Origin: Salinirussus salinus
GTDB lineage: Archaea > Halobacteriota > Halobacteria > Halobacteriales > Haloarculaceae
Direction of reading: 5' to 3'
DNA: 64,000 nt
Assembly: GCF_009831455.1 (NCBI RefSeq)
Contig: NZ_WOWO01000003.1
Span: 558,001-622,000 of the forward strand
Below, in pieces: positions 1,471 through 61,166 of this stretch. The number at the start of each line of letters is the position of its first letter. Position 1 is the first letter of the stretch. The position numbers and the translations under genes were made by a program. The notes beneath the pieces are model-generated. The model did no database searches. It worked only from the letters and a program-made list of their open reading frames with translations, and had not been told where the DNA came from.

Positions 1471-1748
1471 GTCGGGCGCACGCTGTCGCGGCTCCGGCCG
1501 CGACGACATCGTGCGAGGGGTGAGCGAGCGAGGGAGCAATAGCGACCGAGTGAGCGAATCGGCTGGGGAGGTGTGTGGTGTTGGGTGGAGCTGAAAAGGG
1601 CGAGGCGTTGCGGGAAGCACGCCGTCCGCGGCGCGTCGCGCCGCGGGCTCGGGAGAGTTTCGCCCTCCCGGTGACGCAGGCACCGCAGGGAGCGAAGCGA
1701 CTGAGGCGCACAGCGAGGCGCGCGCCCGCAACGCCTCGGGGCTTTCTC
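1471..1748 (+). repeat. Dispersed modular hairpin element, copy A (full, two modules)
   Basis: This fills half of the 569-base gap between two divergent genes. Module 1 (1471-1590) opens with a hairpin: outer stem GCACG 1478-1482 with CGTGC 1510-1514, inner stem GTCGCGG 1485-1491 with CCGCGAC 1498-1504. It ends in a box reading GGCTGGGGAGGTGTGTGG and GGGTGGAG. Module 2 begins CTGAAAAGGG at 1591 and ends GGGGCTTTCTC at 1738-1748. Between them lies a perfect 14-bp stem, CGAGGCGTTGCGGG 1601-1614 with its complement at 1725-1738. Inside its loop is a further near-perfect palindrome of 21 bases at 1632-1652. Related copies are at 23.9, 53.9 and 60.9 kb. The rest of the gap (1749-1905) shows nothing I can name. 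Confidence 0.75.
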
Positions 1749-23915: not shown

Positions 23916-24066
23916 GAAAGCCCCGTGCCTTTCAGTTCCACCCGAAACCACACACCTCCCCAGCCGACTGCGCTCCTCGTCGCTCGCGGTGCTCGCTCCT
24001 GCGGTGCTCATCCCTCGCACGGCGCCCGTCGCGCGAGGACACGCGCGACGGCGTGCGCCCGAGGTG
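23916..24066 (-). repeat. Dispersed modular hairpin element, copy B (module 2 collapsed)
   Basis: Occupies most of the 348-base gap between two minus-strand genes. Read on the minus strand it has the module-1 hairpin: outer GCACG/CGTGC, and inner CCGTCGCGCG/CGCGCGACGG, a perfect 10-bp stem with a 6-base loop. Then comes the GGCTGGGGAGGTGTGTGG box and GGGTGGAACTGAAAGG. Module 2 is shrunk to a tiny hairpin, GAAAG 23916-23920 with CTTTC 23929-23933 (plus-strand reading). The rest of the gap (24067-24184) holds nothing I recognise. Confidence 0.72.
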
Positions 24067-24184
24067 TTGACCATACGGGTGAGACTGAGAAGGGGGCTTT
24101 CCTGCTGTTCGGAGCTTCCGACTCGGATTCCGCTCTGATTCCCGTACGTCAAAAAATCGGTCGGGGTTGCGTGTGCGAGGCGAC

Positions 24185-53854: not shown

Positions 53855-54074
53855 CAGCGAGAAAGCCCCCGGCGGCTGCCGGCTGCGCCTCGCTGCGCTC
53901 CTCGGTCGCTACACTCCCTGCGGTGCTTACGTCGTCTCGCTCGGCGAGCCGCCGGCCCCTTTCAATCCCGCCCGATTCGGCTGTCCAGGCTGGGCGGGAC
54001 TGAAAGGGGCGACCTGTTCGCCTGCGGTCCTTACGTCGCCCACCGTCGTCGAACAGGTCGGGGCTTTCTCGCTG
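53855..54074. repeat. Dispersed modular hairpin element, copy D (MITE-like, 15-bp perfect terminal inverted repeats)
   Basis: Fills most of the 305-base gap between two convergent genes. The ends are CAGCGAGAAAGCCCC (53855-53869) and its exact complement (54060-54074). Inside are two stem modules: CCGGCGGCT 53869-53877 with AGCCGCCGG 53947-53955, and CGACCTGTTCG 54010-54020 with CGAACAGGTCG 54050-54060. Between the modules lies a central hairpin with 18-base arms (53956-53973 and 53992-54009, one mismatch). Both loops contain CTGCGGT, one base, then CTTACGTCG. No clear target-site duplication is visible. It contains no gene. Confidence 0.78.
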
Positions 54075-60954: not shown

Positions 60955-61070
60955 GTCGGGCGCGCGCTGTCGCGGCTCCGGCCGCGACGACACTGCGCGA
61001 GGGACGAGGAGCGCAGGCCGGAGGCCGAGCACCGCAGTCGGCTGGGGAGGTGTGTGGCATCGGGTGGAGC
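60955..61070 (+). repeat. Dispersed modular hairpin element, copy C (module 1 only)
   Basis: Lies in the 262-base gap between two plus-strand genes. The hairpin has outer stem GCGCG 60962-60966 with TGCGC (one G-T pair) and inner stem GTCGCGG with CCGCGAC. Then come GGCTGGGGAGGTGTGTGG and GGGTGGAGCTTTC. The CTGAAAGG-stem module is absent. Compared with copy A, an outer-stem A-T pair is replaced here by G-C. The rest of the gap has no recognised feature. Confidence 0.72.
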
Positions 61071-61166
61071 TTTCCCGGTGTCTCATTTCCGACTCACCGA
61101 GCGCCAACACGGACACCCCCGTTGCGGAAGGGTAGATTCACGGCCCCTCCCGCGGTAGGGGGCGCC

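Follow-up and report, generated by a model that had tools for sequence, protein, structure and literature searches.

Covarying hairpin repeats of Halobacteria are probably arms of IS6-type MITEs

The window, i.e. the whole stretch of 64,000 nucleotides of Salinirussus salinus DNA analyzed here, contains four copies (A to D) of hairpins built from two modules, M1 and M2. All four had been reported by a first-pass annotation and were located at its positions by a check of the window sequence. M2 matches were scored with R1, a covariance model built from 16 M2 copies, and hits in the S. salinus genome were counted at E ≤ 0.01. The features are as follows.

1474..1578, plus strand: M1 spacer module of copy A, GGGCGCACGCTGTCGCGG..CCGCGAC..CGTGCGAGG ... 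CGGCTGGGGAGGTGTGTGG
1591..1746, plus strand: M2 hairpin of copy A, with a 14-bp stem (1601-1614/1725-1738) and an extra hairpin pair in the apical part
23916..23935, minus strand: collapsed M2 remnant of copy B, CTGAAAGG-CAC-GGGGCTTTC
23948..24060, minus strand: M1 module of copy B
24077..24101, plus strand: second collapsed M2 remnant of copy B, GGGTGAGACTGAGAAGGGGGCTTTC / CTGAGAAGGGGGCTTTC
53861..53965, minus strand: left M2 hairpin of copy D, full length, 98 bits with R1
53966..53999, no strand: short spacer between the head-to-head arms of copy D, TCCCGCCC-loop-GGGCGGGA
54000..54068, plus strand: right M2 hairpin of copy D, apical part shortened
60958..61057, plus strand: M1 module of copy C
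61062..61074, plus strand: M2-less site of copy C, GGGTGGAG-CTTTC immediately after M1

The 14-bp stem of M2 in copy A is perfectly paired. Copy B corresponds to M1 between two M2 hairpins reduced to a few bases, and copy D to a head-to-head pair of M2 hairpins. The general plan of M1, as seen in copies A and C, is GGGCGCRCGCTG[stem]..[stem]..CGTGCGAGGGATGA...CGGCTGGGGAGGTGTGTGG, and that of M2, as seen in copy A, is CTGAAAGGGGC[12-14 bp stem]...GACGCAAGCACC...GGAGCGCAGCGAG...[stem]GGGGCTTTC. The M2 closer GGGGCTTTC occurs five times in the window (0.5 expected) and GGCTGGGGAGGTGTGTGG three times (0.13 expected). The extra hairpin pair of copy A (1620-1676; GTTCACGGCGGCG..CGCCGTGAGCTCGGGAGAGC..GCTCTCCCGGTGACGC) recurs in L002, L009 and L217, inserted into the apical loop of M2 at the identical position. 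Inspection of the ends of copies A to D revealed no target duplication (TSD) and no convincing terminal inverted repeats (TIRs), the latter being eroded or unrecognizable. No Rfam family matched M1 or M2, and none reached its gathering score in the window; Rfam searches of the collected loci gave, besides a tRNA, weak unrelated matches in six of them, and together with tRNA searches nothing relevant to the hairpins.

The copy numbers of M1 and M2 derive from searches of genomes. In the S. salinus genome, pattern searches uncovered many copies of both modules, and R1 gave 45 matches at the above threshold, the best with an E-value of 5e-22. Among related genomes, 28 of 39 contained R1 matches; two of these genomes had 71 and 85 matches, the latter being the maximum. 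In an even sample of the phylum, a stricter search gave R1 matches in 23 of the 33 genomes belonging to the same order (a tally from the listed matches) and in none of the 164 genomes outside it. The covariance-model search advised by the first-pass annotation, run with the M2 model, uncovered a dispersed family in Halobacteria; the annotation was right to join the four window stretches, whereas the family is not confined to them and is genome-wide and class-wide. M2 is also carried by haloarchaeal plasmids of many genera, mostly in stretches without an annotated gene. A diverged M2 subfamily, in which GAAAGGGCGAG / CTCGAGGGCTTTC and CTGGTGGA replace GGGTGGGA, was observed in L110, L116, L117, L196, L207 and L209. 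Halorubrum pleomorphic virus 2 (HRPV-2; JN882264.1) has an intergenic M2-like hairpin, GGGTGGGATGAAGGGGTAAGC...GCTTAGGGCTTC (L119:3168-3290), which is absent from the matching place in the related virus HRPV-6. The virus probably carries an M2 copy here. A pleolipovirus origin of the family was considered and rejected, since the absence of the stretch in HRPV-6 was read as an insertion in HRPV-2.

The stems of both modules vary in sequence and remain paired. In the alignment of 16 M2 copies, 98.0% of cells were paired and 20 of 32 pairs showed changes on both sides, with a covariation score of 0.493 against 0.156 for shuffled and at most 0.068 for slid alignments. In 21 distinct M1 copies, 97.1% of cells were paired and both-sided changes were found in 7 of 15 pairs; the score of 0.385 (0.160 when shuffled) was reached by none of 500 shuffles. 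The first-pass description of a hairpin shared by copies A, B and C, with stems that differ yet pair, was thus borne out. Because the first M2 alignment had been chosen partly by stem pairing, the test was repeated on 161 elements collected by opener and closer alone, with no pairing criterion. At least 11 of the 13 stem positions were paired in 147 of these, with a mean of 11.8 Watson-Crick pairs compared with 6.8 when arms were swapped between elements. Over 125 distinct M2 stems, most positions were found as both C-G and G-C; the exceptions are the base of the stem, where the pair is almost always C-G, and position 9, where it is almost always T-A. Where two stems differed by a single base of the 5′ arm, the change was compensated at the same base in 18 cases. 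The reading of stem variation as compensatory change held for such point changes, but part of the variation reflects the exchange of whole hairpin cassettes between loci.

Mismatches over distinct stems comprised 48 G·T/T·G against 7 A·C/C·A (p = 1.3e-8). Such an excess would follow from folding of the element's own strand, since an A·C on that strand is a G·T on the other, and suggests that one folded strand is favored. The predicted stability also differs between the strands, in the same direction. In addition, the unpaired stretches of M2 (the G·G·G loop, GA/A, AA/GCA and A/A) are conserved and not repaired into pairs, which argues against simple palindrome homogenization. The folded strand itself seems to matter, given that long hairpin arms change yet stay paired. 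The first-pass proposals of one modular hairpin family and of a selected fold are thus supported by covariation across the genome, by the conservation of unpaired motifs and by the excess of G·T over A·C in stems.

Borders were defined by aligning non-orthologous copies from two congeneric genomes (G002 and G021), which have about 20 copies each, some at shared sites and some not. The units end in terminal repeats of the form GG(Y)(N)GTGTT(T/C)AG(N)TAAG, also written GG(TA/CG)GTGTTYAGNTAAG, and are flanked by an 8-bp TSD (e.g. ATCGAGGA around L190 and ACGCTCGG around L196). Over all loci examined, 26 M2 units of 200-620 nt had such TIRs; eight of them were flanked by an exact 8-bp TSD, as against 0 of 630 displaced controls, and two more by a TSD with one mismatch. 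Recognizable TIRs were retained by 27 of 115 testable M2 openers, and M1 was found in just one TIR-bounded unit. The units are made of hairpins, and are too short for a transposase gene and devoid of one. In a 338-nt unit with M2 arms (L186/L199), the terminal repeat (CATAGTACTTCACACATGAG / CTTAGTGAAACAGAGAACG) is either another one or has diverged strongly; TIRs of more than one type may enclose M2.

The unit ends match those of IS6 elements over about 16 bp. In annotated IS6-family elements on haloarchaeal plasmids, the two ends are GGTAGTGTTCAGATAAG and GGCGGTGTTCAGATAAG, and an annotated Halorientalis IS6 element with these ends has the TSD GTCTGCTG on both sides. IS6 transposase remnants with such ends were found in the S. 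salinus genome (L215) and in G030 (L224), and the cognate candidates of the S. salinus genome are one IS6 match and one remnant. The IS6 element of G030 also contains several short palindromes like GTGAACGCTCAGCGTTCACGA inside or beside the transposase gene (L224:1390-1960), which look like another proliferating hairpin insert. The number of M2 copies shows no clear relation to that of IS6 transposase genes: no PF13610 match accompanies the 71 M2 hits of G019, and G003 has five PF13610 matches with no M2 hit. Judged from these sequences, the family most likely represents MITEs mobilized in trans by IS6-family transposases. The first-pass suggestion that copies spread as hairpins gives way here, because clear-bordered units with IS6-type TIRs and 8-bp TSDs point to ordinary DDE transposition of a MITE.

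In a two-arm unit, two M2s enclose a spacer, and each M2 is separated from the TIR on its outer side by about 30 nt; a single-M2 unit is about 206 nt long. The spacer is either M1 or short (about 20 nt between CCCGCCC/GGGCGGG arms). In none of 32 distinct head-to-head pairs were the two stems identical, and 26 of them combined one C-starting with one G-starting stem. The mean identity between partner stems (4.5 of 12, compared with 5.8 upon random re-pairing) was below all 5000 shuffles. We read this difference as avoidance of one long palindrome, which would also drive stem diversity. At an orthologous site (L095/L183), the same unit has different stems in two species; whole hairpins are therefore also exchanged. 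It is common for hairpins to have collapsed (copy B, L107) and for additional small hairpins to have inserted into the apical loop. In two congeneric genomes (L166 and L174), the spacer is inverted relative to the head-to-head arms, as if flipped by recombination across them.

The apical triloops are dominantly of the C-GNA-G type, GNA being found in 77 of 117 triloops when folded with RNA parameters. Such triloops are a signature of stable DNA minihairpins. M1, on the other hand, has frequent conserved G·U pairs (about 31 cells). These two features point in opposite directions, toward single-stranded DNA and RNA respectively. Kink-turn and bulge-helix-bulge motifs were sought by eye, and neither fitted. 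The motif GGGYGGGA-CTGAAA-GGGG..GGGG can be read as a putative G-quadruplex.

Several other explanations were weighed. M1 and M2 might be a gene for a structured RNA, or an RNA acting in cis, with MITEs as mere carriers. The RNA-like fold with its purine-rich internal loops agrees with this, as do the strand bias and the conserved G·U pairs of M1, but Rfam has no match, both strands are carried by head-to-head pairs, and M2 orientation is unbiased relative to neighboring genes (few loci and crude gene calls), and we consider a carried RNA rather unlikely. Replication template-switching (quasi-palindrome correction) would pair the arms with no selection on the fold, and would suit both the many C-G to G-C flips that lack wobble intermediates and the exchange of cassettes at an orthologous site. 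Arm copying, however, does not predict the mismatch bias described above, the internal loops are conserved in sequence instead of being turned into pairs, and in stems with a single-base difference the pairing is often restored at that base; this origin of the pairing seems improbable to us. We think it somewhat more doubtful still that M2, which is about 105 nt long and has the ends GAAAG..CTTTC, moves independently as a small mobile repeat and inserts into the MITE palindrome, like SMR-A of Haloquadratum, which is about 110 bp long and targets palindromes (PMC3119063). SMR-A inserts independently into palindromes of other elements with no target duplication. M2-less sites do exist (copy C and the left arm of L100) and fit GGGA[CT]TTC gaining M2 between two CT, but the collapsed M2s of copy B and L107 mean that deletion explains such sites too, and GGGYGGGA of the unit precedes nearly all strong M2 matches.

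Strong hairpins, the strand bias and the dominant triloop type would also be compatible with palindrome elements related to IS200/IS605 (PATEs), which an HUH transposase moves in the form of single-stranded DNA. PATEs, however, have neither TIR nor target duplication (PMC3119063); the well-bordered units have both, by which HUH/PATE mobility was ruled out for them, and we regard kinship with PATEs as very improbable. Finally, the first-pass annotation had asked whether the copies resemble one another merely as GC-rich low-complexity sequence. Their GC content of 65-75% and GAGCGAAGCGAG-like runs invite the question, but the E-values, the slid and shuffled controls and the absence outside the order make chance likeness practically negligible.

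We favor IS6-type MITEs with covarying hairpin arms as the explanation, with a probability of about 0.77. Copies A to D are, with the same confidence, old members of this haloarchaeal family; copies A to C, whose own ends are not convincing, are assigned to the MITEs through their membership in the family. A well-preserved unit consists of IS6-type TIRs, bounded by an 8-bp TSD, around one M2 or two head-to-head M2s with a short spacer or M1 between them. IS6-family DDE transposases would bind the terminal repeats and move the units in trans. TIR-based DNA transposition needs only the ends, and in itself gives no requirement for hairpins. The arms that stay paired during sequence turnover, the retained internal loops (G·G·G, GA/A and AA/GCA) and the strand-biased mismatches may reflect selection on one folded single strand, either RNA or DNA in replication or transposition. 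The fold could be selected for propagation of the element or for limiting host damage, and the difference between partner arms may be maintained by the instability of the single long palindrome that two identical arms would make. More tentatively, and with well under even confidence, we suggest that the M1 and M2 hairpins are a new class of functional, folded RNA or single-stranded DNA on which these mini-transposons depend, with stems diversifying so that partner arms cannot anneal and fixed internal loops being read by a putative protein.

MITEs are known in prokaryotes (PMC10969869), including the haloarchaeon Haloquadratum walsbyi (PMC3119063), and MITE transcripts fold stably (PMC10969869). 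In a library covering few subscription journals, we found neither this family described nor any report of IS6-type MITEs from Halobacteria or of a MITE whose arms covary. The present elements thus appear to be an undescribed, order-wide MITE family with tens of copies in many haloarchaeal genomes. They show covariation of the strength seen in structural RNAs, within a DNA transposon whose ends alone should suffice according to the textbook mechanism, and provide a natural experiment on why prokaryotic MITEs fold so strongly. They are also a warning that mobile DNA will turn up when haloarchaea are scanned for new RNAs by covariation.

Like bacterial REPIN/BIME sequences, the family occurs between genes as scattered pairs of hairpins, set head to head around a spacer. 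REPIN/BIME are short hairpins tied to RAYT (HUH) transposases. Unlike these, the present units have TIRs and an 8-bp TSD. The published description of SMR-A is similar in size (about 110 nt), in the inverted sequence at the termini, in the tens of copies and in the location inside other mobile elements, but M2 was found essentially nowhere except in its own unit. With IS6-family elements of Halobacteria (clade A, PMC7986276) the units share the ends GGTAGTGTTCAGATAAG / GGCGGTGTTCAGATAAG and the 8-bp TSD, but they have no transposase gene and an interior unrelated to the IS. As in known MITEs (PMC3119063, PMC10969869), the units are short, multicopy and intergenic and lack a transposase gene, and have TIRs matching those of autonomous IS, target duplications and stable predicted folds. 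Unlike known MITEs, this family is very GC-rich and modular (single, double or M1-containing), and its arms covary strongly, with conserved internal loops and strand-biased mismatches.
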